A DNA stretch of 64,000 nt from Acinetobacter sp. XS-4 (lineage in GTDB: Bacteria; Pseudomonadota; Gammaproteobacteria; Pseudomonadales; Moraxellaceae): positions 1,736,001-1,800,000 of the forward strand of contig NZ_CP094657.1 in the NCBI RefSeq assembly GCF_023920705.1, given 5' to 3'. The notes under the pieces were generated by a model. It was not told the DNA's origin. It was given only the letters and a program-made list of their open reading frames with translations, and searched no databases. The first letter of the stretch is position 1. The number at the start of each line of letters is the position of its first letter. Of this stretch, positions 32,182 to 52,115 are shown piece by piece. The position numbers and the translations under genes were made by a program.

Positions 32182-33966
32182 ATGAATACCAAATTACCTC
32201 AACAGCTTGAATGCGATTTGGTTGTGGTGGGTGCAGGGGCAGGCGGTTTGTCGACTGCGATTACTGCTAAGAAAAAAGGCTTAAATGTTATTGTCCTTGA
32301 AAAAGATGATGTGTTCGGAGGTACAACAGCTTTTTCTGGTGGAGTACTATGGGTTCCAGGAAACCATCATGCAAAACAAAATGGTATACAAGATAGTCGT
32401 GAAGCAGCGTTGACCTATTTAAAGCATGAAACCAAAGAGTTTTTTAATGCTGAGGCTGTAAACGTATTTCTGGATTATGCACCTGAAATGCTAAATTTTT
32501 TCGAACAATACACCTCAGTTAAATTTATCCCGACACTTTATCCAGACTATCATCCAGATGCTCCTGGTGGGGTTGATATTGGTCGCTCTGTACTAGCTGC
32601 ACCTTATGATATTCGTGGTTTGGGCGAGAATATGAAACGTCTACGTCCGCCTCTTAAAACGATTACCTTTATTGGCATGATGTTTAATTCATCTAATGCG
32701 GATTTAAAGCACTTTTTTAATGCTACTAAATCGTTTACTTCATTTATCTATGTGGCAAAGCGATTAGCTATTCATTTAAAAGAACTGGCTATCTATGGTC
32801 GTGGTACTAATGTCACAAGTGGTAATGCTTTGGCTGCACGTTTGGCTAAATCTGCATTTGATTTAGATATTCCAATCTATACAGAAGCTGAAGTTAAGCA
32901 GTTAAATTTTGAAAATGGCAAAGTTGTTGGCGTACAAGTTAAACAACAAGATCAGCACTGCCAGATTAAATCTAAAAATGGAGTCGTGCTGGCATGTGGC
33001 GGTTTTTCACATGATATTGAACGACTCAAACAAGTTTACGCGCACCTGAAACGTGGAGGTGAACACATCTCTCCTGTACCAAAGACTAATACAGGAGATG
33101 GATGTCGCCTTGCTGAATCGGTTGGCGGTGTGGTGGATATTCACTATGCGGACTCTGCTGCATGGATGCCTGTGTCAAAAGTCCCTTATACAGATAGCTA
33201 TGGCGTGTTCCCACATTTATTAGACCGTTATAAGCCTGGAATTATTGGTGTACTTAAAAATGGTAAGCGTTTCACCAATGAATCAAACTCTTATCATGAC
33301 GTTGGTGCAGATTTATTTAGGGCTTGTGAGGAGCTTGATGAAACTGCTATGTGGTTGATTTGTGATCATAAAACGATTAGCAAATATGGTTTGGGTTATG
33401 CCAAACCAGCCCCAATGCCACTTTCATCTTTAATTAAAAAAGGATATCTCTTTAAAGGTAATAGTTTAAAAGAGCTGGCACAGCAGGCAGGAATTAATGC
33501 TGAGCAGTTAGTTAAGACGGTACAGCGTTATAACGAGGGTGCTGTGAAGGGCCAAGACCCAGAATTTCATCGTGGTTCTACTTCGTTTAACCGATATTTG
33601 GCCGATCCAGATCACAAACCAAATCCATGTGTAGCACCAATAGAGCAAGGCCCATTTTATGCTGTAAAAGTTTTTATGGGTGATTTAGGAACATTTGATG
33701 GTATTAGAACTGCCGTTACTGGTGAGGTATTAAATCAGTTTCATCAACCCATTCAAGGTTTATACGCAGTAGGTAATGACCGTGCGAGTATTATGGGAGG
33801 AAACTATCCAGGTGCAGGAATTACTTTAGGGCCAATCATGACTTTTGGTTATATCACAGGATCACATATTGCTGATTTAGCTAAAGGAGGGAATGGTTTT
33901 ATATCATCTAAAAATTCTAAATCTGCCAATTCTCAATCCGTTAAGGAGACTTTTCATGTTTCATAA
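32182..33966 (+). CDS. FAD-dependent 3-ketosteroid-dehydrogenase/fumarate-reductase-like flavoprotein 1
   Basis: 594 residues. The FAD-binding motif VVVGAGAGGLSTAI is at the N-terminus, with FGGTTAFSGGVLWVPGN near 48-64. The C-terminal signature GNDRASIMGGNYPGAGITLGP near 530-550 is typical of KSTD-type Delta-dehydrogenases, which introduce a C=C bond next to a ring ketone. Start ATG 32182 follows AAGGAGTGACAAC; a start nine codons earlier lacks a ribosome site. It overlaps the following NIPSNAP gene by 11 bp. From context the substrate is an alicyclic oxo-acid, probably not a steroid, since no steroid genes are present. Cytoplasmic; no Tat signal seen. Confidence 0.82.
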   Translation: MNTKLPQQLECDLVVVGAGAGGLSTAITAKKKGLNVIVLEKDDVFGGTTAFSGGVLWVPGNHHAKQNGIQDSREAALTYLKHETKEFFNAEAVNVFLDYAPEMLNFFEQYTSVKFIPTLYPDYHPDAPGGVDIGRSVLAAPYDIRGLGENMKRLRPPLKTITFIGMMFNSSNADLKHFFNATKSFTSFIYVAKRLAIHLKELAIYGRGTNVTSGNALAARLAKSAFDLDIPIYTEAEVKQLNFENGKVVGVQVKQQDQHCQIKSKNGVVLACGGFSHDIERLKQVYAHLKRGGEHISPVPKTNTGDGCRLAESVGGVVDIHYADSAAWMPVSKVPYTDSYGVFPHLLDRYKPGIIGVLKNGKRFTNESNSYHDVGADLFRACEELDETAMWLICDHKTISKYGLGYAKPAPMPLSSLIKKGYLFKGNSLKELAQQAGINAEQLVKTVQRYNEGAVKGQDPEFHRGSTSFNRYLADPDHKPNPCVAPIEQGPFYAVKVFMGDLGTFDGIRTAVTGEVLNQFHQPIQGLYAVGNDRASIMGGNYPGAGITLGPIMTFGYITGSHIADLAKGGNGFISSKNSKSANSQSVKETFHVS

Positions 33967-34288
33967 ACCGATTGTTGATCACCGTATTTATAATATTACA
34001 CCAAGATGTATGCCTAGATTTCTTGAGGTATTCGATCAGCTGGCGATGCCTATTTTGAAAAAGCACTTGGGTGAGCCGCTTGGTTTTTATATTAGTAATA
34101 TCGGTACGTTAAATCAGGTTGTACATTTGTGGGGTTATGACAGCCTGGATGACTATGAAAAGCGTAGTTTTGCTCGAGATACAGATCCTGACTTCCAAAT
34201 TTATTTGAAAGCATCTGAAGGTTTAGTGACGTCACAGGTGAATCAAATTTTAAGGCCAGTGAGCTTAGCTTCATTAACTAAGCCTTAA
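33956..34288 (+). CDS. NIPSNAP-family small protein 1
   Basis: 110 residues with ATG 33956 and AAGGAG upstream, overlapping the flavoprotein gene. The ferredoxin-like NIPSNAP pattern is visible: VDHRIYNITPRCMPRFLEVF, then LGFYISNIGTLNQVVHLWGYDSLDDYEKR, then the closing helix. The family's biochemical role is poorly known. Bacterial members are often fused or adjacent to catabolic oxidoreductases. Its overlap with one flavoprotein, and a second NIPSNAP overlapping another flavoprotein at 46861, argues for a joint function such as product release or isomerisation. That last point is inference. Confidence 0.78.
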   Translation: MFHKPIVDHRIYNITPRCMPRFLEVFDQLAMPILKKHLGEPLGFYISNIGTLNQVVHLWGYDSLDDYEKRSFARDTDPDFQIYLKASEGLVTSQVNQILRPVSLASLTKP

Positions 34289-34316
34289 ACAGCAGTTTAT
34301 TTAAAAATTCCCTTAA

Positions 34317-34342
34317 GGAACGGTGTTTTGAGAAAAACACCG
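34317..34342 (+). promoter_or_regulatory. IclR-like half-operator within a hairpin before AAHS transporter 1
   Basis: GGAACGGTGTTTT at 34317-34329 matches the centre of the 25-bp palindrome at 40116-40140 (GGAACGGTGTTCC) in 11 of 13 bases. CGGTGTTTT / AAAACACCG (34321-34342) also forms a 9-bp hairpin. It may be a secondary site of the IclR regulator at 39329, or an attenuator. Confidence 0.4.
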
Positions 34343-34375
34343 AGGGAAACTTCGTGCTTTTAAAAGGAGAAACTC

Positions 34376-35728
34376 ATGAGCACAAGTCAAATACAAAGGA
34401 AAGATGTAAAAAGCATATTAAATGAAAATAAGATGGGTAGACTACAAAAGCTCATTCTATTTTTTTGCTTTGCTATTATTGCTCTAGATGGTCTGGATGT
34501 CGTAGTCATGGGATTGATTGCTCCTCAGATTATTCAGGAGTGGGGTATTAGTGCACAAGAGTTAGCACCAGTTTTAAGTGCAGCATTGATTGGATTAGCA
34601 ATAGGTGCATTAGTTTCTGGACCTTTATCAGATAAATTTGGCCGAAAACCAGTGCTAATTTTAAGCGTACTTGGCTTTGGTATTTTTACTTTGCTGACAG
34701 CATTTTCAACTGATATCACACATCTCTTAATTTATCGCTTTCTTACAGGATTAGGTGCCGGTGCTGCTGCTCCCAATGCAGCGACTTTAGTTTCAGAATA
34801 TGCAGCAGATCATCGCCGTTCATTTTCAGTTACTGTTGCCTACTGTGGTTTTTCTCTGGGCGCTGCAGCAGGTGGTTTTTTAGCAGCATGGCTTATTCCG
34901 GAGTTTGGCTGGCGTAGTATGTTGATATTAGGCGGCGTACTGCCTTTGATTTTGGTACCATTTTTATATTGGAAAATGCCTGAATCAATTACCTATCTAG
35001 TCAAACAATCGTACTCACAAGATAAAATCAAAGCGATTTTAAAACGCTTATTTCCACAATCTTCTTTTTTAAATCAAGAAATTTATCTGAATGAAGTAAA
35101 AACCGAGAAATCTGGTCTAGGTCTAATTTTATCTAGTAAATATCGCTATGGCACGATTATGCTCTGGATCAGTTATTTCATGGCATTATTTTTAATCTAC
35201 CTATGCAGTAGCTGGTTACCAACCTTAATTAAGTCGAATCAATTTACGATTTCTCAAGCTGCCATTGTGACTTCGTTCTTTCAAATTGGTGGTCCTGTTG
35301 GAAGTATCACTCTTGGTTGGTGTATGGATCATTATCGTCCGCGTTTGGTTCTTTTTATTGCCATGTTAATTGGTGCACTTGCAACCTTTGGGTTAGGGCA
35401 TTTTGGTCATGATATGGTGCTTATGTGTGTTTTTGCATGGATTCTTGGTTTTACCTTTAATGGTGGGGCCGTTGGTTTGAGTGCTTTAGCGACTGGATAT
35501 TATCCGACTTCTGCTCGTGCAACCGGAGCAAGCTGGATGAATGGTATTGGGCGCTTTGGTGCAATATTAAGTGCGTTTGCTGGAGCTGCGATGATCAGTT
35601 CAGGTATGCCATTTTCTATGATGTTCTCATTGTTAATGATTCCTGCTGTACTTTCTGGTTTTGCTGTTTTAATTCAGGGTATTAAAACGAAACAGTCTGT
35701 TGTGCAAACTAAAACACAGTTGAGTTAA
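34376..35728 (+). CDS. AAHS-family aromatic/hydroaromatic acid:H+ symporter 1
   Basis: 450 residues with 12 helices. AAHS hallmarks are the DGLDVVVMGLIAPQI helix-1 motif (residues about 40-55), GPLSDKFGRKPVLI near 83-96, and the ATGASWMNGIGRFGAIL region near 385. The group includes BenK, PcaK and VanK and imports benzoate-like or shikimate-like acids. It lies 88 bp after NIPSNAP 1 with AAGGAGAAACTC before the ATG. It is probably co-regulated with flavoprotein 1. The AAHS protein at 40309 is a close paralogue. Confidence 0.88.
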   Translation: MSTSQIQRKDVKSILNENKMGRLQKLILFFCFAIIALDGLDVVVMGLIAPQIIQEWGISAQELAPVLSAALIGLAIGALVSGPLSDKFGRKPVLILSVLGFGIFTLLTAFSTDITHLLIYRFLTGLGAGAAAPNAATLVSEYAADHRRSFSVTVAYCGFSLGAAAGGFLAAWLIPEFGWRSMLILGGVLPLILVPFLYWKMPESITYLVKQSYSQDKIKAILKRLFPQSSFLNQEIYLNEVKTEKSGLGLILSSKYRYGTIMLWISYFMALFLIYLCSSWLPTLIKSNQFTISQAAIVTSFFQIGGPVGSITLGWCMDHYRPRLVLFIAMLIGALATFGLGHFGHDMVLMCVFAWILGFTFNGGAVGLSALATGYYPTSARATGASWMNGIGRFGAILSAFAGAAMISSGMPFSMMFSLLMIPAVLSGFAVLIQGIKTKQSVVQTKTQLS

Positions 35729-35928
35729 ATCAGTAATAAAGCAAGTTGATTAACAATTTTAAAATCTATATTTGCTTGTTAAATATTCTCTATGGCTTTG
35801 AATTAGCTTGATCAGCATGCTGGTCAGGTAAGGATAAATACACATTAAAAAATGTATAGCAGTTGATTCAGCTGAAATAATTCAAGGCTTTATGTTCATG
35901 ATAAACAATGTGCTAAGGAACAGCATTA

Positions 35929-37275
35929 ATGAAATTTTCTATGACTTCGCTTGCGATGATTTCAACTTTTACATTAGCAAGTAGTGCGGTATTCGCTTTC
36001 GATCCTTTGGCTCAGGATCAAAAATGGATATTGGGTGATTGGAACGGAAAACGGACTCAACTCGAACAGCAAGGTTATCAATTTACCACCGCTTTTCAAA
36101 ATGAAAGTGCTGTTAATTTGAGTGGGGGATATGACGATTCATCACGACTATTTAATGCAAACCAATGGACATTTGGTACACGTCTAGATTTAGAAAAAAT
36201 CGCAGGTTGGAAAGATACTCAAGCACAGTTGAGCATAACGAAACGAGATGGACAACCGCTTTCTACTGATCGGATTAGTGATCCTAGAGCGCCGCAATTT
36301 AGTAGTGCTCAAGAGATTTATGGTCGTGGACAATGGTGGCGCTTAACCAGTGCATGGGTTAAAAAAGGATTTTTGAATAATGATCTACAAATTAAGGTAG
36401 GTCGTATGGGGCTTTCAGATGATTTTAATGCATCGCATTGTGAGTTTCAGAACTTAATGTTATGCGGAGGTCAGTTAGGTAAAACGGTAGGAGATATTTG
36501 GTTCAATAGTCCTGTAAGCCAATGGGGAATTAACGCCAAATATCAAGTTTTACCTTCACTCTGGTTTGGAACAGGGATTTATGAGGTCAATCCTGAAAAT
36601 GCCTTAGAGCAACATGGTTTTAATTTGGATATGGATCAACGTAAAGGTATTTTAATTCCTGCGGAACTATCGTGGAAACCCAATCTAGCATTTTTCGATG
36701 GCTTAAGTGGTGAATATAAAGTCGGTGCATTTTTGTCAACGGCAGATGCACGTAATGTTAGTACAGATGAAAATGGTAATATTGAGCCAAATGCAGCAGA
36801 TCGAAAATGGCAAAACAATAAGCATAGTGTCTGGTTAAATGCACAACAACAGGTTTTTGCGCCTGCGGACGACTCTAAGCGCGGTTTATTTATTTCAGCA
36901 AACTTTACTTTTAATGATAAATCTACAACTGTTGTTGAAAGCACACAGCAACTAGCGCTTTGGTATAAGGGCATATTCGAGCATCGACCAAATGATACCA
37001 TCGGTTTGGGTCTGGCACGTTTTGATGTGAATGATCGTGTCCAAGAACGCCAAAATGCATCTAATCAATTACTGGGATTAACCGAAGCTGACTATGCGAA
37101 TCCGAAATATACACCGATTCAGCATGACGAATTGAATATTGAATTGAACTATAACTTTCAATGGTCACCTAGTATTGCTTTACGACCAAATATTCAATAT
37201 GTGCATCAACCTGGTGGTGTAAAACAAGTGGATGATGCTTGGGTAGCAGGTATGACCATGAAGCTTAATTTTTAA
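35929..37275 (+). CDS. OprB-like outer-membrane porin
   Basis: 448 residues. A signal peptide ending ASSAVFA precedes FDPLAQDQKWILGDWNGKR, the start of the OprB (carbohydrate-selective porin) domain. The rest alternates polar and aromatic residues as in beta-strands, and the protein ends in Phe (MKLNF), the usual insertion signal. OprB relatives pass sugars, quinate-like polyols and other small acids. Placed 200 bp after an AAHS permease, it likely gives the cluster's substrate a route across the outer membrane. Transcript continuity is uncertain; a strong terminator follows. Confidence 0.82.
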   Translation: MKFSMTSLAMISTFTLASSAVFAFDPLAQDQKWILGDWNGKRTQLEQQGYQFTTAFQNESAVNLSGGYDDSSRLFNANQWTFGTRLDLEKIAGWKDTQAQLSITKRDGQPLSTDRISDPRAPQFSSAQEIYGRGQWWRLTSAWVKKGFLNNDLQIKVGRMGLSDDFNASHCEFQNLMLCGGQLGKTVGDIWFNSPVSQWGINAKYQVLPSLWFGTGIYEVNPENALEQHGFNLDMDQRKGILIPAELSWKPNLAFFDGLSGEYKVGAFLSTADARNVSTDENGNIEPNAADRKWQNNKHSVWLNAQQQVFAPADDSKRGLFISANFTFNDKSTTVVESTQQLALWYKGIFEHRPNDTIGLGLARFDVNDRVQERQNASNQLLGLTEADYANPKYTPIQHDELNIELNYNFQWSPSIALRPNIQYVHQPGGVKQVDDAWVAGMTMKLNF

Positions 37276-37287
37276 ATATGTATGAGT

Positions 37288-37320
37288 AAAAAGGCAAACA
37301 AAGGTTTGCCTTTTTATTTT
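37288..37320. terminator. Bidirectional terminator between porin and tetR-type genes
   Basis: AAAAAGGCAAAC / GTTTGCCTTTTT form a perfect 12-bp stem with a 4-base loop. The stop codon of the convergent TetR gene (37314-37316) overlaps the end of the stem. Confidence 0.88.
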
Positions 37321-37931
37321 CCAAACAAGATTTTTAGATTTTCTTGAAAAAGCGTTTCAAGTGATAAAATTTCATTGGGATTCAGGATGCCATTGTGAAT
37401 CATACCCATCCACATAGGGCTCACAATAAGCAATGCAAATTGCTGTGGGGAAATCGTGGCTGATAATTCTTCACGTTGAATCGCTAAACTGGTTAATTGC
37501 TCAAGCTCATACTGAATAGGTAAAAAAATCTTATTCACGTAAGTTTGACGAATATGCGGAAAATTATTTCCTTCACGTAAAATTAAGAGTGCCATATCCG
37601 CACGACCAGTCGTTTCAAGCGTTAAAACACTGGGAATAATCTTTTTACAAATGAACTCGTAAACGGTTTCATTTTGAGTGATTTCAGAGGCGCGAATAGG
37701 GCGAAATGAATCGTTGATGAGAGCATCAATTACTGCTTCAAATAACTGATCTTTAGTTTCAAAATAAGAATAAATTGTACCTTTGCCTAATTCAGCATGT
37801 TTAGCAATATCTGAAATTTTTGCTCTTGCAAAACCCACTTCAATAAAATGTTGTAGAGCAGAGTCAATAATTTTCTTTTTAGTTTCTTGCGTCTTTTCTA
37901 GGCTTGGGCCGCGTGTTTTAGATTTCGTCAT
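37314..37931 (-). CDS. TetR-family repressor
   Basis: 205 residues. The N-terminal helix-turn-helix (KKKIIDSALQHFIEVGFARAKISDIAKHAELGKGTIYSYF as motif span, about 15-60) is typical of TetR, followed by an all-helical ligand domain. It is divergent from an MFS exporter gene with two palindromic boxes in the 101-bp interval. It presumably represses the exporter and itself until a small ligand binds. It lies inside the alicyclic-acid cluster but may be unrelated to it. Confidence 0.87.
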   Translation of the reverse strand: MTKSKTRGPSLEKTQETKKKIIDSALQHFIEVGFARAKISDIAKHAELGKGTIYSYFETKDQLFEAVIDALINDSFRPIRASEITQNETVYEFICKKIIPSVLTLETTGRADMALLILREGNNFPHIRQTYVNKIFLPIQYELEQLTSLAIQREELSATISPQQFALLIVSPMWMGMIHNGILNPNEILSLETLFQENLKILFGK

Positions 37932-37975
37932 GTTGAACTAGATTTCATTGTTAACAAGATTATTTTAACATAAAT

Positions 37976-38017
37976 TGACCCGTGGGTCATATTTGAATTA
38001 AAATCGACTTAAAAGTC
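37976..38017. promoter_or_regulatory. Two TetR-type operator palindromes
   Basis: TGACCC-GT-GGGTCA (37976-37989) and GACTT-AA-AAGTC (38006-38017) have centres 29 bp apart. Both share TGAC/GTCA-like arms, and the second sits just before the exporter start. Confidence 0.65.
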
Positions 38018-38032
38018 ACTTTTGGTTGAATT

Positions 38033-39241
38033 ATGCAGACACCAAAGTCCAGTGTTCAATATTGTATTATTAGTTTTGCACTATGCCTTGCTGCTTTAAG
38101 CACAGCTTTAGCAAGTCCTCTATATGCAATCTATGAACAACAGTGGGGCGTTTCAACATCTCAAATAGGCTATATCTTTATTTCCTATATGTTAGGCGTA
38201 GTTTTTTCACTCCTGTTTTTAAATAAACTCAATGCAATTTATCACTATAAAAATGTGATTTTGGTCAGTTTGGCTTTAACCATTTTAGGTTTAATGTTGT
38301 CTGCATTGGCAAGTTCTGTTTGGTTACTGGGCTTTTCAAGGTTTCTGATAGGAATTGCTTCAGGACTTATTACCACCGCTGCAATGGTAGGACTCAAAGA
38401 CCAATATCCGTTTCGTAATAAGGCATTAGCTGAAAAGCTTACTTCTATAATTACTGTTTTGGGTTTTGGTTTGGGGCCTTTGGTCGGTGGTATATTGGCT
38501 GACCATACCGCGCGGCCATTGGCTGATCCTTATTGGATTATTATCTTTTTTTCAATTCTGATATTTATCAGTGTGTTCTGGGTCAAACCAAGATTTAAAG
38601 TTGAGAAAAAATATCAGTTAAATGAGTTATTAAAACTACAAGGTTTAGTATTGCCGCAGGTAGCTTCACGCAAAGTTTTCTGGGTCTGTAGTGTGGCCGC
38701 ACTTTGTAGTTTCGGGGCTTTCAGCTTATATGCAGCTTTGGCTGGGACTTTTATTAAAGAATTACCGATTACATCATCAGCCACCTTAACAGGTGTATCG
38801 ATTTCAATCATTTTATTTGTGTCAGTGCTGAGTCAATTATTTTGTAAATCGTTTAAAGAATTGCATGTGTTGTATACAGGCCTATTAGCTTTATTGCTTG
38901 GAACGATTAGTTTGGTTATGGCAGAAGTTGAACACATTATTTGGTTTTTATTGATCAGTATTTTGCTGACGGGTATGGGACATGGTTTTACCCTAAGTGC
39001 TGCCTATCACTTTATTGGCAATATGATGGATCGGGAAAAAAATCCGCTGGTCTTCTCTAGTTATTTGTTTATTGCTTATCAAGGTACGATCTGGCCTGTC
39101 ATCCTTTCCAGTTATTTTATTGAATATTTCGGAGTTGTCATCACATTAGGGCTGATAGCAGCATTATTAATGGTGACTATCGTATGGTTGATGCATCAAC
39201 TTAAATTTAAGGTGGCGCCTACATTAGCTCGTCATAAATAA
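38033..39241 (+). CDS. MFS transporter (12-helix exporter type)
   Basis: 402 residues with about 12 hydrophobic segments. The helix-1 stretch LAALSTALASPLYAIYEQQWGVS and helix-4/5 RFLIGIASGLITTAAMVGL resemble small DHA1/YfcJ-like exporters. The usual motif A (DRxGR) between helices 2 and 3 is weak (LNKLNAIYHYK). It is controlled by the divergent TetR gene, the standard efflux arrangement. Substrate unknown. Confidence 0.8.
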   Translation: MQTPKSSVQYCIISFALCLAALSTALASPLYAIYEQQWGVSTSQIGYIFISYMLGVVFSLLFLNKLNAIYHYKNVILVSLALTILGLMLSALASSVWLLGFSRFLIGIASGLITTAAMVGLKDQYPFRNKALAEKLTSIITVLGFGLGPLVGGILADHTARPLADPYWIIIFFSILIFISVFWVKPRFKVEKKYQLNELLKLQGLVLPQVASRKVFWVCSVAALCSFGAFSLYAALAGTFIKELPITSSATLTGVSISIILFVSVLSQLFCKSFKELHVLYTGLLALLLGTISLVMAEVEHIIWFLLISILLTGMGHGFTLSAAYHFIGNMMDREKNPLVFSSYLFIAYQGTIWPVILSSYFIEYFGVVITLGLIAALLMVTIVWLMHQLKFKVAPTLARHK

Positions 39242-39286
39242 CGATTGATCAATTTTGGGAACTTAAAATATGTTTAAAGGGTATTT

Positions 39287-39315
39287 AGGCAATCGAAATA
39301 TGATTTTGATTGCCT
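39287..39315. terminator. Bidirectional hairpin between MFS and iclR-type genes
   Basis: AGGCAATCGAAAT / ATTTTGATTGCCT pair with one mismatch around ATG, between converging stops. Confidence 0.7.
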
Positions 39316-39328
39316 TAGAGGCTAAAAA

Positions 39329-40099
39329 TTAGATATGGATTAAATTGATGATGGAAGCAATTTTCTCTGAAGTGACCATGAGTGCTGGTGCTAGCTCTTC
39401 AATACGTTTAGGACTTAAGCGTACAGAAGGCCCTGCAATACTGACTGTACCAAAAGGCTCACCTGTCTGTGGATTGAGAATGATTTTAGCCATAGCAGAC
39501 ATGCCTAGCTCATAGGTGTCACTAATCACACCATAACCTCGCTCTCTAGAAGCCTTAATCATTTGCTCTAGTTCTGTAAGGTCTTTTGGTGAGTTTGGTC
39601 CAAAGTTCTTAGCTTTATCGAAACCTTCACGTTCCACAATTCGTGAAAAGTCATTTTGATCAAGAGTAGATAAATACGCTAAACCACAAGCTGAAGCAGG
39701 TAAATAGGCCACGTTGCCAGAGTCAGGATCATATTTTAGACCTGATTTGGCTCCTTGAGCTTTACCAATCCAGATAATTTTTTCGTCTTCGATTAAACCG
39801 AGGCGAACCAGTTCAGAAGAGGTTTCTGCCAATTCATCAAGATAGGGTTGAAATGTTTCGGTAATCGAGCGCGATGATAGAAAACTCAAACCCATTGAGG
39901 CAATTTTAAGAGTGAGCTTGTAGTGCTGCGTGATTTCATCTTGATAGATGTACCCCATGTCTTTCATCGCAGTCAGGATGCGATGCATTGCAGACTTTGG
40001 GATATCAAGATCAACAGAAAGCTGACTAAGTGCACATCCATCCACTTCTTTTAATAGTGCTTCAAGGATGAGCAAAGAACGATCGGTATTGCTGAGCAT
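39329..40099 (-). CDS. IclR-family regulator (KdgR-like)
   Basis: 256 residues. The winged helix lies at about 8-65 (LSQLSVDLDIPKSAMHRILTAMKDMGY). The effector domain has LPASACGLAYLSTLDQ near 130-147 and YELGMSAMAKIILNPQTGEPFGTVSIAGPSVRL near 195-228. It is divergent from the AAHS-led operon at 40309, with a perfect 25-bp palindrome directly upstream of its start. This geometry predicts autoregulation plus control of the operon. The ligand is probably the alicyclic or hydroaromatic acid handled there. Confidence 0.88.
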   Translation of the reverse strand: MLSNTDRSLLILEALLKEVDGCALSQLSVDLDIPKSAMHRILTAMKDMGYIYQDEITQHYKLTLKIASMGLSFLSSRSITETFQPYLDELAETSSELVRLGLIEDEKIIWIGKAQGAKSGLKYDPDSGNVAYLPASACGLAYLSTLDQNDFSRIVEREGFDKAKNFGPNSPKDLTELEQMIKASRERGYGVISDTYELGMSAMAKIILNPQTGEPFGTVSIAGPSVRLSPKRIEELAPALMVTSEKIASIINLIHI

Positions 40100-40115
40100 A
40101 AAAATCCTAATATTA

Positions 40116-40140
40116 TTTTTTGGAACGGTGTTCCAAAAAA
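40116..40140. promoter_or_regulatory. Perfect 25-bp IclR-type operator
   Basis: TTTTTTGGAAC / GTTCCAAAAAA are exact complements separated by GGT, 17 bp before the IclR start codon and 170 bp before the AAHS operon. GGAAC...GTTCC arms resemble known IclR-family sites. Confidence 0.8.
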
Positions 40141-40308
40141 ATTAAAAACAGATTATAGTTGTTTTAGATTCTATCTCAAATGCTGTACAGATGAATCATT
40201 CAGATACGGAGTTTCCTAATTATTCAGCTTTTGATAATAACTAGGGAGCAAAACTGAATAAGCGATGGAAAACGCATATTTGCTGATACACACTAATGGA
40301 GTAAGTGT

Positions 40309-41664
40309 ATGACTCAACAGGTAAATTTAAGGGAGTTTATTGATGAAAATCGCATATCCCCAATACAAAAACTAGTCATCTTTTTATGTTTAATGATTAT
40401 CGTTGTTGATGGTATTGATATATCAATCATGGGATTTGTAGCTCCCGTCATTAAGCAGCAATGGGGAATTACTACAACTGATCTTGCACCCGTAATGAGT
40501 GCAGCTTTAATTGGTTTAGCTGTAGGCGCAGTGATTTCAGGACCTTTGGCAGACAAGTTTGGACGTAAAAAACTACTCATTATTAACTTAATTGGTTTTG
40601 GCGTATTTACTTTATGTGCAGCAGTTTCTAGCAATGTGACAGAACTGATGATGTTCCGTTTTATTGCTGGTTTATTTATGGGAGGAGTAATGCCGCAAGC
40701 TGTTACGTTGGTAACAGATTACTCACCCATGAAAATGAATGGCCGTATGGTTACCATCATTTTAAGTGGATTCACAATTGGTGCTGCTATTGGAGGTTTT
40801 TTGGCTGCTTGGGTGATTCCACATTTTAACTGGCATGCCATGATGATTATTGGTGGAGTCCTACCACTTATTTTAGCCGTTATCGCAGCATTTAAATTAC
40901 CCGAATCTATTGGTTATAAAGTCCTTAAAGAACATCCAAAAGCAGAGATTGATGCCATTATTCATAAAATGGCACCAGATTTTGATACAACTAACACGGT
41001 TTTTATTTTACCTAAAGCAAAAACCAACACGGTCGATAATCCAGTAAAAGCAGTCCTCAGTCCTTTTTATTTCTTAGGCAGCTTTTTGCTTTGGTGGAGC
41101 TACGCCTCTGGTTTGTTTGTGGTGTATTTACTTGGAAGTTGGTTACCAATGATGAGCCATGAATTTGGTTTCAGCATTAGTGAAGCTTCAATTATCACTG
41201 CGATTTATCAGCTAGGAGGCCCAATAGGTTGTATCGCATGCGGTTATTTGATGGACAAGTTGAATCCACACCTTGGTTTAGTGATTGCATATCTTTTAGC
41301 GATTGGCTTCATGTTCTTTCTAGGTGCAGTGGGTCATAACTTTGTAATGTATAGCATGATGTGTTTCTTCATCGGTATGTGGATGAATGGTGCGAATGCA
41401 GGTCTCAACAGTGTTTCAAGTTCATTCTATCCAGTTTTTGCACGTGCAACAGGAAACAGCTGGATGCATGGTATAGGCCGATTAGGAGCAGTGGGTAGTG
41501 CATTTGCTGGAGCATATTTTTTAAGCCTAGGTTGGGAGACAAGCAAAATTTTCCTTGTGCTTTGCTTGCCAACTGCCGGTATGGTCGCCGCATTAATTAT
41601 TATGAAACTGGTATATTCACCAACAAAGATACGTCAGCACGAACTTAAAAAAGTTCAAATCTAA
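40309..41664 (+). CDS. AAHS-family aromatic/hydroaromatic acid:H+ symporter 2
   Basis: 451 residues. It has DGIDISIMGFVAPVI in helix 1, GPLADKFGRKKLLI near 83-96 and ATGNSWMHGIGRLGAVGSAF near 380-400, all AAHS signatures, and is plainly paralogous to the protein at 34376. It is the first gene of a six-gene operon (gaps of 37, -11, 5, 12 and -4 bases follow). GGAG lies eight bases before ATG 40309. It imports the operon's substrate, presumably a ring acid, across the inner membrane. Confidence 0.88.
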   Translation: MTQQVNLREFIDENRISPIQKLVIFLCLMIIVVDGIDISIMGFVAPVIKQQWGITTTDLAPVMSAALIGLAVGAVISGPLADKFGRKKLLIINLIGFGVFTLCAAVSSNVTELMMFRFIAGLFMGGVMPQAVTLVTDYSPMKMNGRMVTIILSGFTIGAAIGGFLAAWVIPHFNWHAMMIIGGVLPLILAVIAAFKLPESIGYKVLKEHPKAEIDAIIHKMAPDFDTTNTVFILPKAKTNTVDNPVKAVLSPFYFLGSFLLWWSYASGLFVVYLLGSWLPMMSHEFGFSISEASIITAIYQLGGPIGCIACGYLMDKLNPHLGLVIAYLLAIGFMFFLGAVGHNFVMYSMMCFFIGMWMNGANAGLNSVSSSFYPVFARATGNSWMHGIGRLGAVGSAFAGAYFLSLGWETSKIFLVLCLPTAGMVAALIIMKLVYSPTKIRQHELKKVQI

Positions 41665-41701
41665 AATTTTCTAACTCACCGATTTTTAAGGAGATTGAAT
41701 A

Positions 41702-42517
41702 ATGGATATTCAATTGAATGGAGCAACTCGTCTTTATTTTGTGGTCGGACATCCGATTGTACAGGTCAAATCACCTGAGGGTGTAACGATGGAGCTGCTT
41801 AAAAAGGATTTAAATGCAGTTGTTGTACCAGCCGATGTAGCACCAGAACACTTCCCAAATTTTGTTCAGCAAAATTTGTATTTAAATAATAGTGACGGCT
41901 TGATTGTCACGGTTCCTCATAAAATTTCGGCTTTGAATTGCTGCCAAAAATTAACTTCACGCGCACAGTTTATTGGGGCGGTAAATACGATTCGCCGCTG
42001 TAAAGAAGGGTGGGAAGGAGACATGCTTGATGGTAAAGGCATGGTACAAGCGATACGAAATAAGTTAATCAAGTTGAAAGATAAACGCGCCATTTTGGCG
42101 GGAGCTGGTGGAGCAGGTAAAGCGATTGCTTATGAATTACTTCTTGCTGAAGTGGCTGAGTTAGCAATTTTTGATGTAGATCAAACGCGTCAACAACAAC
42201 TAGTTGAACAACTTCAACAGTTAGGCAAAGGCAAAGTTGTTGCACATAACAATGATCCAACAGGATTCGACGTTGTAGTCAATGCGACACCTATGGGAAT
42301 GAATGGTGATCCTTCAGCAGCTTTTCAATTAGAAAAAATAACTGCACAAATGTCGGTTGCAGATGTCGTGACTAGTCCTGAAAACACACCATTTATTCAA
42401 CATGCGTCGACTTTGGGATGTAACGCAGTCAAAGGAACGGACATGTTTATTGAGGTTCGCGACTTAATGATTGCTTATTTACTTGAGAAAGAGCAGGAGC
42501 AACAAGATGTCGCGTGA
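41702..42517 (+). CDS. Shikimate/quinate-dehydrogenase-like (AroE-family) oxidoreductase
   Basis: 271 residues of the AroE fold. Catalytic lysine lies in VPHKISA near 78, the aspartate in DMLDGKG near 110, NTI near 100, glycine motif AGAGGAGKA near 132, and NATPMGMNGD near 200. Two departures stand out. The substrate-binding HSxSP motif reads QVKSP, losing the first serine. The end of the second Rossmann strand is FDVDQT, an acidic residue favouring NAD as in catabolic quinate/shikimate dehydrogenases (YdiB type). It probably oxidises a hydroxyl of a hydroaromatic acid. It overlaps the next gene by 11 bp. Confidence 0.82.
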   Translation: MDIQLNGATRLYFVVGHPIVQVKSPEGVTMELLKKDLNAVVVPADVAPEHFPNFVQQNLYLNNSDGLIVTVPHKISALNCCQKLTSRAQFIGAVNTIRRCKEGWEGDMLDGKGMVQAIRNKLIKLKDKRAILAGAGGAGKAIAYELLLAEVAELAIFDVDQTRQQQLVEQLQQLGKGKVVAHNNDPTGFDVVVNATPMGMNGDPSAAFQLEKITAQMSVADVVTSPENTPFIQHASTLGCNAVKGTDMFIEVRDLMIAYLLEKEQEQQDVA

Positions 42518-43334
42518 ATATTCACTTTCATTTTTGACAGTTGCAGATGTGAGTCCTGTAGAAGCAGTCAAAATTGCAGCAAAGTGTGGTTATGCAGCAG
42601 TGGGCTTACGCCTGCTGCCAGCAGCACCTAACGAAGTAGATTATCCAATTTTAAATGATAGCAAGCTGATTAAGGAAACAAGGGCTGCTTTGGATGACAC
42701 AGGTGTTCGTATCGCTGATGTTGAAATTGTACGAATTACTTCTGACTTTGAAGCAAATAAATATTTGCAGTTTTTAAGTACCGCTGAGCAGCTCGGTGCT
42801 AGGCATATTTTAGTTGCAGGAAATGATCCTGAGCAGTCAAGACAAATACATCACTTCGCACAATTTTGTGAATTAAGTAAACAGTTTGGCTTGAGTTGTG
42901 ACCTAGAGTTCATGCCATGGACCAATGTGAAAAATTTGGCGCAGGCTGAATATATCGTGAATCAATCAGGGCAAGAAAATGCTGCCATTTTAATTGATGC
43001 ATTACATTTTGACCGATCAGATTCAACACTTGAGCAGATCAAAGCACTTGATCCAAAGCAGTTAAACTATGTTCAGCTTTGCGATGGTTTTGCTGAATAT
43101 GATCCGCGTGATGAAGGCTTAATTAAGATCGCACGTTCTAATCGATTAGTGCCCGGACAAGGCGAAATTGATCTTATAGGGTTAATTCGTGCTTTACCCA
43201 AAGAAATTATGTTAGCTGCAGAAGTCCCCAATTTGGTACTAGCTGAACGTCCCGCTCTCGAACGCGCTGAAATTAATTTGCAAGCAATGAAACAGCTCGT
43301 TGCGCTCGCTCAATTGGGCACTGTTACGGGGTAA
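42507..43334 (+). CDS. Xylose-isomerase-like TIM-barrel protein, possible dehydroshikimate-dehydratase type
   Basis: 275 residues from ATG 42507 (GGAG seven bases before it; an earlier in-frame start would lie deep in aroE-like). AP endonuclease-2/xylose isomerase fold: metal-binding acids and His are seen in CDLEFMPW near 133, ILIDALHFDRS near 167, QLCDG near 195 and AEVPN near 245. Relatives include sugar epimerases and short 3-dehydroshikimate dehydratases (AsbF-like, about 280 residues). Following a shikimate-dehydrogenase-like gene, a dehydratase giving a catechol is one option. An isomerase of another keto-acid is equally open. Confidence 0.7.
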   Translation: MSREYSLSFLTVADVSPVEAVKIAAKCGYAAVGLRLLPAAPNEVDYPILNDSKLIKETRAALDDTGVRIADVEIVRITSDFEANKYLQFLSTAEQLGARHILVAGNDPEQSRQIHHFAQFCELSKQFGLSCDLEFMPWTNVKNLAQAEYIVNQSGQENAAILIDALHFDRSDSTLEQIKALDPKQLNYVQLCDGFAEYDPRDEGLIKIARSNRLVPGQGEIDLIGLIRALPKEIMLAAEVPNLVLAERPALERAEINLQAMKQLVALAQLGTVTG

Positions 43335-43339
43335 GAAGT

Positions 43340-45115
43340 ATGAACGCAAAAACCCAACAACCATTTCAGATGATTCCGATACCAATTCGTGAATGCTACG
43401 AATGTGATGTTTTAGTCATTGGCTCAGGTGCAGGTGGGCTTTCAAGCGCCGTGACCGCAGCATATGAAGGATTAAAGGTTATTGTCGCAGAGAAAGCATC
43501 CGTATTTGGTGGAACAACTGCTGTATCGGGAGGGTGGTTATGGATTCCTAATACACCTCATGCTGAACGGGAAGGCCAAGCTGAACCAATTGATATACCG
43601 AAGCTATATTTAAAAAGTATTTTGGGTGAAAAGTATGATGAAACAAAGATTCATACTTATTTAACTCAAGCACCCAAAATGGTGGAATTTTTCGAAGCCA
43701 AAACGGAAGTTAAATTTAATATTGGTGCGGCGGTACCTGACTTTTTCAATATTGAAGGTGCTAGGGTTGGGTGGCGTTCGATTGTTGCAGCACCTTATAA
43801 TGGCCGTTTACTTGGTCAGAAACTAAATATCCTACGTCCACCAATTCCTGAAACTACACTTTGGGGAATGGGTATCGCTTCTGGCACAGATATGAAGCAT
43901 TTCATTAATACTTTTAATGCAATTCCATCCTTCATCTATGCGACCAAACGCGTATTACGACATTTTTTTGATCTAATTTTTACTAAGCGCTCAACTCAAA
44001 TTGTGAATGGTAATGCTTTGGTGGCTCGACTACTCAAATCTGCATTTGATTACAAAGTACAACTATTAGCAAATCATGCCATGACTGAATTAGTTGAAGA
44101 AAATGGTCGAGTGATTGGAGCATTATTTAAAACACCAGCTGGCATCGTCAAGATGATCGCAAAACATGGCGTGATATTAGCAACTGGTGGTTTTCCGCAT
44201 GATGAAAAACGTAAACAAGCTTTATTCAAACATGTGAGTGAAGGTACTCCCCATCATTCAGCTGCCCCTGAAACAAATATAGGTGATGGCTTAATTGCAG
44301 CAGAAGCAATAGGAGCAACTGTTGATCAAACTTTGCCTTGGTCTGGCGCATGGGCACCTGTTTCATTAATTCCGCGTTTAGATGGAACTTTAGGTCGTTT
44401 TCCACATTTGGTTGAGCGAGGTAAACCGGGATTAATTGCAGTTTTAAAAAATGGATGCCGCTTCACGAATGAAGGAGATTCTTATCCTGCATTTATTAAA
44501 GATCTATTCAAACATACACCGCAAGGCAAACAAGCACATTGTTGGTTGATTTGCGATCACAAGTTCATTCGCCGTTACGGCTTAGGCGCTGTTAAACCTT
44601 TTCCAATTTCTCTAAAGCCTTGGCTAGACAATGGTTATTTAAAACAAGGACACACTATTCAAGAGCTGGCTGTGGCATGCGGTATAGATCCAGTTCAGTT
44701 TTTAAAAACAGTTGAGCAGTACAACCAATATGCCTATTTAGGCCAAGACCCCGAGTTTCAGCGGGGTAGTACTCCTTATCAAAAAGCACAGGGTGATGCT
44801 GATCATCATCCGAACCCATGTATTGCCCCGATTGAAAATGGACCATTTTATGCAGTTGAAGTGGTGCCAGGAAGTTTAGGCACATTTGCAGGACTGATTA
44901 CAGATGAATATGCCCAAGTTCTAAATAAAGCTGGGCAACCGATTAATGGATTATTTGCGGCTGGAAATGACCTCAATAGCATCATGGGGGGCCAATATCC
45001 AAGTGGTGGAATTACCTTAGGTCCAGCCATGACATTTGGTTATCTTGCTGCAAAAAAAATTGCTGAACAAGCTCGAACTGAAACAGTAGCGTTCACGCCA
45101 CATAAGCAAGATTAA
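43340..45115 (+). CDS. KSTD/fumarate-reductase-like flavoprotein 2
   Basis: 591 residues. A short leader precedes DVLVIGSGAGGLSSAVTAA (FAD motif, about 29-47). FGGTTAVSGGWLWIPNTPHA lies near 57-76, and the C-terminal motif GNDLNSIMGGQYPSGGITLGP near 545-565. Closest in layout to flavoprotein 1 (32182), with shared blocks such as 'WLICDHKFIRRYGLGAVKP'. KSTD-type enzymes remove two hydrogens alpha-beta to a ring ketone and pass electrons to a quinone or ETF. The residues YPSGG differ from the usual YPGPG, so activity on a non-steroid ring is plausible. Confidence 0.82.
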   Translation: MNAKTQQPFQMIPIPIRECYECDVLVIGSGAGGLSSAVTAAYEGLKVIVAEKASVFGGTTAVSGGWLWIPNTPHAEREGQAEPIDIPKLYLKSILGEKYDETKIHTYLTQAPKMVEFFEAKTEVKFNIGAAVPDFFNIEGARVGWRSIVAAPYNGRLLGQKLNILRPPIPETTLWGMGIASGTDMKHFINTFNAIPSFIYATKRVLRHFFDLIFTKRSTQIVNGNALVARLLKSAFDYKVQLLANHAMTELVEENGRVIGALFKTPAGIVKMIAKHGVILATGGFPHDEKRKQALFKHVSEGTPHHSAAPETNIGDGLIAAEAIGATVDQTLPWSGAWAPVSLIPRLDGTLGRFPHLVERGKPGLIAVLKNGCRFTNEGDSYPAFIKDLFKHTPQGKQAHCWLICDHKFIRRYGLGAVKPFPISLKPWLDNGYLKQGHTIQELAVACGIDPVQFLKTVEQYNQYAYLGQDPEFQRGSTPYQKAQGDADHHPNPCIAPIENGPFYAVEVVPGSLGTFAGLITDEYAQVLNKAGQPINGLFAAGNDLNSIMGGQYPSGGITLGPAMTFGYLAAKKIAEQARTETVAFTPHKQD

Positions 45116-45127
45116 GGAGAATTGAAC

Positions 45128-46864
45128 ATGGATAAAGAAGTTGATTTATTGGTTATTGGCGGTGGCGCCGCAGGCATGTCCGCAGCGCTTTTTGCCAAGC
45201 TTAATGGATTAGATGTTTTACTTTGCGAAAAGGCTTCCCAAGTAGGTGGTACTTCAGCAACATCAGGTGGAACGATTTGGGCGCCAGGATCACATTTAAG
45301 TGTTCAAGCAGGTGTTCCCGATGATATTGAGCAAGCTCGAATTTTTCTTAAATCTGTAGTGGGTGAACGTGGTGGTGAAGAACTTCGCGAAGCATTTCTA
45401 GCGTCATGTGCTGATATGGTTCGTGATTTAGATGAGAAAACTACAGTTAAGCTTAATGCTTGTTTAGCACATCCCGATTATGTGAAAAACCAACCAGGAG
45501 AAGCATTTGGTGGTCGTGCACTTGCTCCTGCTGAATTTGATGCAAGTGTTTTAGGTGCTGACTTTAAATATGTACGTCCTCCACGAGCGGAATTTATGGG
45601 CTTAGGCGGCATGATGGTCAACCGTACTGAATTAAATGCACTGTTAAATCCTATACACAGTTTTCAGAACTTTATGACTACCTTGAAAGTTGTGGTGCCT
45701 TATTTTCTGTCACGTCTACGCTTTAATCGGGGTACCCGGCTTGTTATGGGTAATGCTTTGGTAGGTAACTTATTTTATAACCTTAAACAAAAACATGTTC
45801 CTGTTTGGTTCAATGCATCACTGCAAGAGCTACTGGTTGAAAAAGGCAAAGTGGTGGGAGCCAAAATTGAAACCGAGCAAGGTGTGAAAGTTGTTCGTGC
45901 CAGAAAAGGTGTAGTTTTAGCCACTGGTGGTGTGGGGTGGAATATAAAGTTACGTCAACAATTGTTCCCAAAAGGTTTAATTTCATACTCACTTTCACCT
46001 TACTCAAACACGGGTGATGGGCTTAGTAAAGCTATGGAAAAAGGTGCAAAACTTGACCCCTCTGTGGATAGTAGTGTGCTTTATTTTCCATGCTCCATCC
46101 ATGTTCATGCCAACGGTTATAAAGCTATTTGGCCACACATTATTTTAGATCGGGCTAAACCGGGTGTAATAGCTGTCAATGACGATGGTAACCGCTTTGT
46201 CAATGAGTCAGATTCGTACCACGACTTTTGTATGGCTCAGCTTAAAACAAATCAAGGTAAAGCAAAAATTCAGTCTTACCTGATTTGCGACCAAACTGCG
46301 ATTGAAAAATATGGGTTAGGTTTTGTTCTGCCTGGTGCAAAAAAACTCGATTACTACCTCAAAGAAAAATATTTATTCTCTGCAAATTCACTAGAGGAGC
46401 TTGCCCAAAAGGTTGGGATTAACGCTCAAGGATTAGTGAATACAGTTCAACGTTTTAATCACCTCGTTGAACAGGGTGTAGACACTGACTTTGGTAAAGG
46501 TAGTGGTGTAATGAACCGGTTTAACGGAGATCCAGAAGTCAAACCTAATCCATGTTTGGGCAAACTTGAGCAAGGCCCCTTTTACGCTTTACCTGTCATT
46601 CCAATGGACTGTGCGAGTAGTGGTGGATTAGCTGGCGACATTTATGGTCGAGTGCTTGATCAGAATAATCAGGTTATCTCTGGGCTATTTGCCTGCGGTA
46701 ATGACCTATCTTCAATTTTTAAAGGAACATATCCAGGCCCAGGAACAACACTAGGGCCAGGGATGGTATTTGCTTGGCGAATTGCTCAATTTGCCGCAGG
46801 AAAACTAAATAAACAAGTGACTGAGCAACCTACACAAATGACACAACCACGGAGAACCGCATGA
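45128..46864 (+). CDS. KSTD/fumarate-reductase-like flavoprotein 3
   Basis: 578 residues starting at ATG 45128 with AAGGAG seven bases upstream (a TTG six bases earlier is rejected). FAD motif DLLVIGGGAAGMSAAL is at the N-terminus, GGTSATSGGTIWAPGSH near 43-59, and the C-terminal motif GNDLSSIFKGTYPGPGTTLGP near 530-550. It retains the YPGPG sequence of true KSTDs, unlike the other two copies. Adjacent to flavoprotein 2 it suggests two successive desaturations on one ring. Its last four bases overlap the NIPSNAP start (ATGA). Confidence 0.82.
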   Translation: MDKEVDLLVIGGGAAGMSAALFAKLNGLDVLLCEKASQVGGTSATSGGTIWAPGSHLSVQAGVPDDIEQARIFLKSVVGERGGEELREAFLASCADMVRDLDEKTTVKLNACLAHPDYVKNQPGEAFGGRALAPAEFDASVLGADFKYVRPPRAEFMGLGGMMVNRTELNALLNPIHSFQNFMTTLKVVVPYFLSRLRFNRGTRLVMGNALVGNLFYNLKQKHVPVWFNASLQELLVEKGKVVGAKIETEQGVKVVRARKGVVLATGGVGWNIKLRQQLFPKGLISYSLSPYSNTGDGLSKAMEKGAKLDPSVDSSVLYFPCSIHVHANGYKAIWPHIILDRAKPGVIAVNDDGNRFVNESDSYHDFCMAQLKTNQGKAKIQSYLICDQTAIEKYGLGFVLPGAKKLDYYLKEKYLFSANSLEELAQKVGINAQGLVNTVQRFNHLVEQGVDTDFGKGSGVMNRFNGDPEVKPNPCLGKLEQGPFYALPVIPMDCASSGGLAGDIYGRVLDQNNQVISGLFACGNDLSSIFKGTYPGPGTTLGPGMVFAWRIAQFAAGKLNKQVTEQPTQMTQPRRTA

Positions 46865-47478
46865 AGCTTTATCAACTGATTAACATCACTATCAAAATGG
46901 GTACAACTGCAACTGTTGCAGCAGGTATTCAAAGTTTTTACCAAGATGAGACAGCTAAGGGTAAGTTACTTGGAGTATTTTTCTCTGATATAGGCGAGCT
47001 CAACCAAGTTGTTGTATTACGTAGCTATGCTTCACAACAAGAATTAGGTGATGAAAATGCGCGTTTAGCAGCACAAGAAAACTTGTTTGAGACATCTGAA
47101 AATATTATTAGATATTCAGTAGAAAATTTTGCTGGTTTTGACTTCTTACCAGAAGTTGAGGTAGGTGAATTTGGTCCTGTATATGAAATCCGTACTTATG
47201 AGTTGAAACATGGTGGTGTCCCTCATGTCCTTGAGGCATGGAAAAATGCAGTGCCAACTCGTACTCAATACTCAAAATTAACAATAGCGATGTATGCTCT
47301 TGATGGTACACCACGTATTGTAAGTATTTGGCCATACGCATCATTGAATAAACGTTCGGAAGTTCGTGCCAAATCAGTGGCAGATGGCATTTGGCCACCA
47401 AAAGGCGGCCCACAGTGGTTAACTCATGCAATGAAGTCAATGATTGCACTACCAACTTCAGTATCGCCACTGAAATAA
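46861..47478 (+). CDS. NIPSNAP-family protein 2 (two-domain)
   Basis: 205 residues, made of two ferredoxin-like NIPSNAP units: residues 1-100 (FFSDIGELNQVVVLRSYAS) and 105-200 (VYEIRTYELKHGGVPHVLEAWKNAVPTR, then IVSIWPYASLNKRSEVR). It is about twice the length of NIPSNAP 1. It overlaps flavoprotein 3 by four bases and ends the operon, followed by a terminator. Function unknown. Recurrent coupling to KSTD-like flavoproteins points to a role in the same reaction sequence. Confidence 0.8.
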   Translation: MKLYQLINITIKMGTTATVAAGIQSFYQDETAKGKLLGVFFSDIGELNQVVVLRSYASQQELGDENARLAAQENLFETSENIIRYSVENFAGFDFLPEVEVGEFGPVYEIRTYELKHGGVPHVLEAWKNAVPTRTQYSKLTIAMYALDGTPRIVSIWPYASLNKRSEVRAKSVADGIWPPKGGPQWLTHAMKSMIALPTSVSPLK

Positions 47479-49842: not shown

Positions 49843-49966
49843 TAAAATATCACTCTCATTACTCTTGATTGAAATGGAGTGTGAACTCTTCAATCAACAA
49901 GTATGGGCAAAATGTAATTAATAAAATTGCAGATAATAAAGAGTCATGCATATCAAGGAGATGATC

Positions 49967-51277: not shown

Positions 51278-51288
51278 TTTACTTTGGC

Positions 51289-51329: not shown

Positions 51330-51348
51330 TCTTTATTCGAGGAATTAC

Positions 51349-52098: not shown

Positions 52099-52115
52099 TA
52101 CGGAAGGATAAAATC

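Follow-up and report, generated by a model that had tools for sequence, protein, structure and literature searches.

What is the function of two neighboring gene sets that combine flavoproteins resembling 3-ketosteroid dehydrogenases (KSTD) with NIPSNAP proteins? The question is raised by a 64 000-nucleotide stretch of the Acinetobacter sp. XS-4 genome (hereinafter the window; positions 1736001-1800000 of the 4.17 Mb single-contig genome, NZ_CP094657.1), where domain assignments and coordinates bear out the inventory drawn up in a previous, sequence-only reading of this DNA: three KSTD-like flavoproteins, two overlapping NIPSNAP genes, two AAHS permeases, an SDR, an AroE-like dehydrogenase, a TIM-barrel protein, a porin and two IclR regulators. 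That reading proposed a pathway for the desaturation and aromatization of ring acids. The comparisons described here give good support to a conserved pathway that oxidizes ring acids to aromatic products, but not to the part of the proposal that named a Chc-type substrate, 4-oxocyclohexanecarboxylate. With slightly better than even confidence, judging from sequence comparison, the substrates aromatized by both operons would be cyclohexane carboxylic acids resembling quinate and shikimate, hydroxylated and either saturated or partly reduced.

The first line of evidence is the conservation of one of the two sets, operon B, which consists of genes for the permease AAHS-B (40309..41664; TIGR00895, 364.5 bits vs the cut-off of 418.55), the AroE-like protein, the TIM barrel, FlavB, FlavC and NIPSNAP-B, in this order, all on the plus strand and spaced by <40 bases or overlapping, with IclR-2 (39329..40099, minus strand; PF01614) transcribed divergently. 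Named genomes were scanned with a NIPSNAP-B alignment, and the best 80 of the 428 confirmed stretches (16 from Acinetobacter and 64 others) were compared, with gene presence scored at 35% identity and 70% coverage. In this set, which is anchored on NIPSNAP-B and consists of non-independent loci, with most of the neighbors assigned by their BLAST resemblance to a small number of representatives that had been checked against models, FlavB is found in 75 loci, the TIM barrel in 73, AroE in 72, FlavC in 69, IclR-2 in 51 and FlavA in 12. AroE, the TIM barrel and FlavB occur jointly in 14 of the 16 Acinetobacter loci and 56 of the 64 others, and in 72 of the 80 loci NIPSNAP-B is located at most 200 bases from a flavoprotein gene on the same strand. 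The gene content of operon B recurs across Alpha-, Beta- and Gammaproteobacteria with shuffled gene order and exchanged transporters (AAHS, Tct, Liv and Dct types, by our own labeling), so that the conservation speaks for function over mere descent.

Within the genus, the distribution of the module is patchy (11 of 119 genomes, including XS-4). NIPSNAP-B is at most 97% identical to public proteins (96% to one from Acinetobacter oleivorans and 89% to one named from A. baylyi), which places XS-4 probably in the calcoaceticus group, and its relatives are found on 33 plasmid records. On a Paracoccus plasmid, the minimal unit is annotated as shikimate dehydrogenase, Gfo/Idh, IclR, FAD-dependent oxidoreductase, NIPSNAP and TIM barrel, with the module products named by family only. 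No publication on this gene set was found in the open-licence literature, which is weak evidence of novelty. The combination of FlavB and NIPSNAP-B as a self-standing unit (loci L142, L144 and L087) was considered and rejected at least for L142, given that the same genome (G177) has the TIM barrel, FlavC and AroE elsewhere (L244), which points to a split module.

The second line of evidence comes from the flavoproteins, FlavA (32182..33966), FlavB (43340..45115) and FlavC (45122..46864), all encoded on the plus strand and containing PF00890, for each of which the best solved relative is the 3-oxosteroid 1-dehydrogenase AcmB (7p18). In AcmB, Tyr363 and Tyr536 are catalytic, with Tyr363 acting as the base that abstracts the proton adjacent to the ketone (PMC9736390). 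When 166 flavoproteins (480-760 amino acids, at least 33% identity, at least 70% coverage) were aligned to AcmB, the base tyrosine was found to be kept in all 17 FlavA, all 81 FlavB and all 68 FlavC sequences. Tyr536, along with Gly540 four residues on, which we take to be its ketone-binding partner, is present in all 166 proteins except for one gapped FlavC; the equivalent of Tyr118 is found in 16 of the 17 FlavA and all 68 FlavC sequences, and FlavA of the window keeps the equivalents of Y118, Y363, Y536 and G540. An active site of the KSTD type, as supposed from the sequence alone, is supported by this conservation of the base tyrosine and the ketone-binding pair. In the tree of the flavoproteins, FlavC forms a clade of its own (support 0.999).

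The same residues bear on the possibility that the flavoproteins are reductases of the fumarate, urocanate or enone type, with ring acids serving as electron sinks, which draws on the common FAD_binding_2 superfamily and on the presence of fumarate and urocanate reductases among the solved relatives. This possibility appears improbable, with KSTD structures scoring far higher than the reductases (301 vs at most 118 bits for FlavB, 305 vs at most 132 for FlavA), the KSTD tyrosines kept family-wide and Pfam detecting FAD/NAD-binding type domains only. Degradation of steroids or bile acids, to which the similarity to 3-ketosteroid dehydrogenases might point, is the least probable of all the explanations considered: FlavA, FlavB and FlavC score 459.9, 422.7 and 439.6 bits, respectively, under the cut-off of 789 for the 3-ketosteroid delta1-dehydrogenase model NF009478, and 420.3, 398.7 and 401.1 bits under the cut-off of 788 for the model NF005882 of the same enzyme, and the genes adjacent to the relatives are of the quinate/shikimate and beta-ketoadipate kinds. 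Among the matches listed (the best 25 per protein, or those with E up to 1e-60) for 47 of the 51 open reading frames (ORFs) of at least 120 amino acids, none reached a steroid equivalog cut-off, in agreement with the absence of steroid genes remarked on before. The cut-off of the PRK06134 subfamily model NF004789 (747 bits) is exceeded by FlavB (768.1), with FlavA (726.8) and FlavC (602.4) below it.

The suggestion that the ketone required for such desaturation could come from an alcohol dehydrogenase is supported. The candidate in operon B is the AroE-like protein (41702..42517, plus strand). Its closest solved relative is 4k28, a shikimate dehydrogenase family protein that presumably is RifI2 of Pseudomonas putida, and the two have the motif QVKSP in common, compared with HSKSP-type motifs in the ordinary enzymes seen. 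The score against TIGR00507 is 159.5 bits, under the cut-off of 200.2; K74 and D110, which we take to be the AroE catalytic pair, are invariant in 70 aligned AroE-like proteins.

A pointer to the nature of the substrate is the TIM barrel (42507..43334, plus strand; PF01261), which has a dehydroshikimate-dehydratase-like active site. The published active site of the dehydroshikimate dehydratases QuiC1 (structure 5hmq) and QsuB consists of R64, L97, E134, L136, H168, D165, Q191, S206, R210 and E239 (PMC7442255). When 8 QuiC-like proteins were aligned with 71 TIM proteins of the module, eight of these 10 residues are identical in the protein from the window (R76, L102, E134, H167, D164, Q190, R213 and E239), with M substituted for L136 and A for S206; a second, generic TIM barrel present in some module loci (TIM2) is without the His, Gln and Arg positions (4 of 11 aligned). 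A search for TIM relatives that was not anchored on NIPSNAP yielded matches in 21 of 398 genomes, XS-4 included. Outside XS-4 there are 24 matches, located in 23 regions; QuiC-like genes are present in nine of these regions, AroE/shikimate dehydrogenase in 13 and a flavoprotein of the same type (37% identity or more) in 11. Assuming one QuiC copy per ∼5 Mb, we roughly estimate a chance expectation of ∼0.1 of the 23, the genomes not being independent. The QuiC-like genes of L140 and L141 encode full-length proteins scoring 748 and 758 bits, under the cut-off of 1200 for the two-domain QuiC model NF042435, and the others were recognized by BLAST only. Among the 13 regions where the TIM protein is at least 38% identical, six include QuiC-like genes, eight AroE, 10 the flavoprotein and two NIPSNAP-B; the respective counts for the first three genes in the remaining 10 regions are three, five and one. 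Taken together, the TIM barrel, AroE and the co-located QuiC-like genes favor quinate/shikimate-like acids, and such hydroxy acids fit better than cyclohexanecarboxylate.

The presence of QuiC-like and shikimate dehydrogenase genes alongside the TIM barrel and FlavB would also fit a route to gallate, in which FlavB desaturates C4-C5 of 3-dehydroshikimate or an analog, yielding gallate rather than protocatechuate, a reaction that by our reasoning is chemically possible beside the C3 ketone. Such a route is slightly less probable even than the reductase alternative: the TIM barrel is left without a task, and the recognized neighbors are of the PobA, PcaF and PcaI types, although no model search for gallate genes was made.

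These neighbors lead to the other gene set. Set A includes FlavA (start at 32182 with a GGAG ribosome site, the ORF itself opening at 32155), NIPSNAP-A, the PcaK-like permease AAHS-A (34376..35728; TIGR00895, 397.7 bits vs the cut-off of 418.55) and the OprB porin (35929..37275; PF04966), all on the plus strand, with IclR-1 upstream (31061..31870, plus strand), a PcaR/PcaU/PobR-like regulator scoring 283.7 bits, slightly under the TIGR02431 cut-off of 284.75. Divergent from IclR-1 is the gene for the SDR dehydrogenase (30133..30873, minus strand; PF13561), a candidate FlavA partner that passes the broad subfamily model NF005559 (248.8 bits, cut-off 215); these two genes are located just left of the span 32182..47478 on which the sequence-only reading had centered. 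AAHS-A and AAHS-B are 45% identical, and FlavA and FlavB 47%, so that both pairs are paralogs and the earlier description of paired modules is a fair one; FlavC is 38% identical to FlavA and 37% to FlavB. Between the two sets lies a TetR regulator gene (minus strand) paired with an MFS exporter-like gene (plus strand; together 37314..39241), and this pair adjoins the module in some other Acinetobacter, too.

In Rhizobium-type loci, operon B is followed by PcaF, a CoA-transferase, IclR, PobA, a one-domain NIPSNAP, FlavA and an SDR, in this order. Across the 80 loci, many of them related, PobA is present in 7 of the 12 with FlavA vs 3 of the 68 without it, and a NipA-like NIPSNAP with a single domain is present in the same seven loci; the curated cut-offs are passed by one representative each of PobA, PcaF and the PcaI type. 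The presence of such neighbors in some relatives strengthens the suggestion that an aromatic product feeds into 4-hydroxybenzoate or protocatechuate metabolism. A search of 299 genomes for FlavA produced matches in 19, and seven of the eight regions around ∼50% identical relatives contain an SDR, as detected by BLAST. In the XS-4 genome, pobA is found at 2.58 Mb and pcaHG-like genes at 1.69 Mb, the latter adjoining genes for an aroD-type dehydratase, an OprB porin (L100:15308-16624; 56% identical to the porin in the window), a pyrroloquinoline quinone quinate/shikimate-family dehydrogenase and a 484-amino-acid protein without an NCBIfam match.

The link to PobA is also what would be expected if two flavoproteins, possibly FlavA alone or with FlavC, converted 4-oxocyclohexanecarboxylate to 4-hydroxybenzoate in the manner of the Chc enzymes, the genes of which come from Sinomonas. 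The three flavoproteins match the ChcC2 model at 560, 499 and 397 bits, a cyclohexanecarboxyl-CoA cluster with badI-, aliB- and badH-like genes is located ∼13 kb away, and BadI-like genes (72% and 48% identical to that of the window) are found near the module in L055 and L064. Furthermore, Acinetobacter is named among the aerobic users of cyclohexanecarboxylate in the source in which the aerobic route is described as starting with a P450 (PMC9795900). The curated cut-offs are, however, missed by a wide margin: the best scores, both those of FlavA, are 347.2 vs 1000 bits for ChcC1 (NF053676) and 559.9 vs 900 bits for ChcC2 (NF053677), and the SDR scores 213.6 vs 400 and 193.8 vs 350 bits for ChcB1 and ChcB2, respectively. 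No P450 was detected in the XS-4 genome by a PF00067 search, PobA is missing from all eight regions around the ∼50% identical FlavA relatives, and the dehydratase-like TIM barrel, AroE and the QuiC-like neighbors are left unexplained. A Chc-like conversion accordingly appears unlikely, even if it is the strongest of the competing explanations. For terpenoid acids, another class of substrates that had been suggested, no support turned up, although no search was aimed at them.

Both sets also encode NIPSNAP proteins, which far exceed the PF07978 gathering score of 22.3 bits. NIPSNAP-A (33956..34288, plus strand; 79.2 bits) contains a single domain, and its start, with AAGGAGA upstream, overlaps the FlavA stop by 11 bases; NIPSNAP-B (46861..47478, plus strand; 104.0 bits) contains two, which form a tandem alpha+beta barrel, possibly of the anthrone-oxidase-like kind, in the structure model (pLDDT 95.3), and its start overlaps the FlavC stop by 4 bases. 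These three domains are the only ones in the genome at E 0.001. Elsewhere, NIPSNAP genes seldom have such a flavoprotein as a neighbor: this was seen, within flanks of 1.5 kb, at two loci, both NipB-type, of the 29 that represent part of the 52 domain matches outside the XS-4 genome. The most likely role proposed for NIPSNAP-B is to process an unstable enone or dienone, whether by tautomerization or by cofactor-free oxidation. The notion of one NIPSNAP domain per flavoprotein fits the window, with one for FlavA and two for FlavB and FlavC, and was rejected given that L080, L082 and, by its annotation, L263 encode a full-length NIPSNAP-B with no FlavC seen; the Foldseek/VIA matches to heme enzymes (HemQ and chlorite dismutase) were not accepted as an indication of function. 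In one locus (L038:9995-12530), a NIPSNAP-B relative, with no KSTD-like flavoprotein in the locus, is followed by an SDR-like gene and by a protein that by eye resembles a Rieske oxygenase.

With respect to regulation, the inverted repeat TGGAAC-GGT-GTTCCA (40121..40135) is a probable IclR-2 operator, and operon B is probably controlled by this regulator. The sequence TGGAACNNTGTTCCA is found exactly in 16 of 260 loci, every one from Acinetobacter, and in 15 of these the repeat is located ahead of the operon, at a distance of 786-799 bases from the stop of IclR-2, wholly within the gap separating the two called frames in 12 and overrun by the longest possible IclR-2 frame in three; the sixteenth (L017) is on a contig without the IclR-2 side. 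In 11 of the 16 (L010-L014, L016, L017, L019, L020, L023 and L030), a further copy precedes a Gfo/Idh gene, which may or may not be accompanied by TIM2, by 94-288 bases and is the sole site in L017, implying a larger regulon than in XS-4. The site at 40121..40135 is the only match in the genome to the 19-base pattern with at most one mismatch. It is the conservation that gives the repeat its weight, since nothing can be concluded from the window taken by itself: with two mismatches there are 2 matches vs 1.87 expected, and the single two-mismatch site elsewhere in the genome does not exceed the reversed-pattern control of 1 + 1.

From these data, we infer the following reactions and substrates. 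In operon B, the AroE-like enzyme would convert a hydroxyl on the ring into a ketone, next to which FlavB, joined by FlavC where present, would remove two hydrogens in the KSTD manner, and the TIM barrel, like 3-dehydroshikimate dehydratase, would remove water to yield protocatechuate. With dihydroshikimate, the route would consist of 3-oxidation, C1=C2 desaturation to 3-dehydroshikimate and dehydration to protocatechuate; this acid fits the minimal gene set and is our best conjecture for a single substrate, with a deoxyquinate fitting nearly as well. Set A would perform a matching job on a substrate with fewer hydroxyls, leading to 4-hydroxybenzoate.

Several observations weigh against this scheme. 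The TIM barrel (287-amino-acid ORF) scores 22 bits against NF042435 and is without the second, C-terminal HPPD-like domain of QuiC; in those clusters where a QuiC-like gene lies beside it, 3-dehydroshikimate requires no TIM barrel, the substrate of which may be a related acid. Twelve of the 23 TIM regions yielded no flavoprotein at or above 37% identity, NIPSNAP-B is present in just two, and three of the nine QuiC-bearing regions combine only a distant TIM protein (29-31% identical) with no such flavoprotein. At 10 of the 80 loci, some of them truncated by contig ends, the full trio of AroE, the TIM barrel and FlavB was not recovered. FlavB mostly lacks Tyr118 (F in 75, I in four and Y in two of the 81 sequences, with F in the FlavB of the window), so that its chemistry may differ, and in the tree FlavA and FlavB are intermingled in a single clade. 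Of 244 genomes of the order searched for AroE relatives, 48 have a match at 1e-20, and in six regions around 31-37% identical relatives from other members of the order, no TIM barrel, flavoprotein or NIPSNAP-B is adjacent, nor is the Pseudomonas neighborhood of the 4k28 type found. In addition to the absence of PobA, the eight regions (19-20 kb) around the ∼50% identical FlavA relatives contain no NIPSNAP scoring >60 bits. Finally, the XS-4 genome already carries quinate/shikimate-type genes.

If the aromatization of quinate/shikimate-type acids is correct, it would explain the use of saturated plant- or fermentation-derived ring acids by diverse proteobacteria, flavin desaturation would join the quinate/shikimate toolbox, and a conserved bacterial NIPSNAP subfamily would acquire a testable role. 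More tentatively, and with considerable doubt, the module could be an undescribed, widespread peripheral route for reduced or deoxy acids of this type, such as dihydroshikimate, in which a KSTD-like desaturase completes the aromatization together with NIPSNAP-B, the latter serving as a cofactor-free tautomerase or oxidase of the enone, in which case the bacterial NIPSNAP fold would gain a catabolic enzyme function.

Several other units are found elsewhere in the window. The cyclohexanecarboxyl-CoA type unit (49946-63046) includes a third AAHS gene (49946-51277), which is not part of the two sets, ETF-domain proteins, a CaiB-type CoA transferase (below cut-off), an ETF-ubiquinone oxidoreductase, an IclR and two acyl-CoA dehydrogenases, along with BadH-like (430.7 vs 431.2 bits), BadI (530.7 vs 467.6) and AliB-like (700.2 vs 575.35) proteins; as in the window, the module is near BadI-like genes in L055 and L064. 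Positions 22016-27172 encode a 1718-amino-acid defense-like protein with DUF4011, AAA_11/AAA_12 and REase_MTES_1575 domains, and the region 5539-21562, which has a sulfur-scavenging look, encodes an alkanesulfonate monooxygenase-like protein, an SsuA-family binding protein, a DszC/SfnB-like oxidoreductase and two sigma-54 activators.

Among the known systems, AcmB and KstD1 share with the flavoproteins sequence relatedness, the base tyrosine and the ketone-binding Tyr/Gly pair, and differ in the Tyr118 that FlavB lacks and in the steroid context. The protein 4k28 is the closest solved counterpart of the AroE-like enzyme, down to the shared QVKSP motif. The Bad/Ali pathway, which likewise handles a cyclohexane carboxylic acid and is encoded by separate genes ∼13 kb away, proceeds by CoA-dependent ring opening without aromatization. 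The Chc system, with its 4-hydroxycyclohexanecarboxylate dehydrogenases ChcB1/B2 and desaturases ChcC1/C2 (pathway described in PMC9795900), resembles the two gene sets in coupling an SDR with two successive KSTD-like desaturations leading to an aromatic acid; the two sets differ in missing all the equivalog cut-offs, in having no P450 and in the addition of NIPSNAP and a dehydratase-like enzyme. The closest parallel to the proposed pathway is the qui/qsu catabolism of quinate and shikimate, with its QuiA or AroE-type dehydrogenase, dehydroquinate dehydratase and QuiC dehydroshikimate dehydratase: both feature AroE-fold oxidation, a TIM active site of the dehydroshikimate dehydratase type, a PcaK-like permease, a porin resembling that of the quinate-type cluster of XS-4 and protocatechuate as the likely product. 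The module departs from it in the single-domain TIM barrel, far below the QuiC model, in the QVKSP motif of AroE in place of the HSKSP type, and in the addition of one or two KSTD-like desaturases and NIPSNAP.

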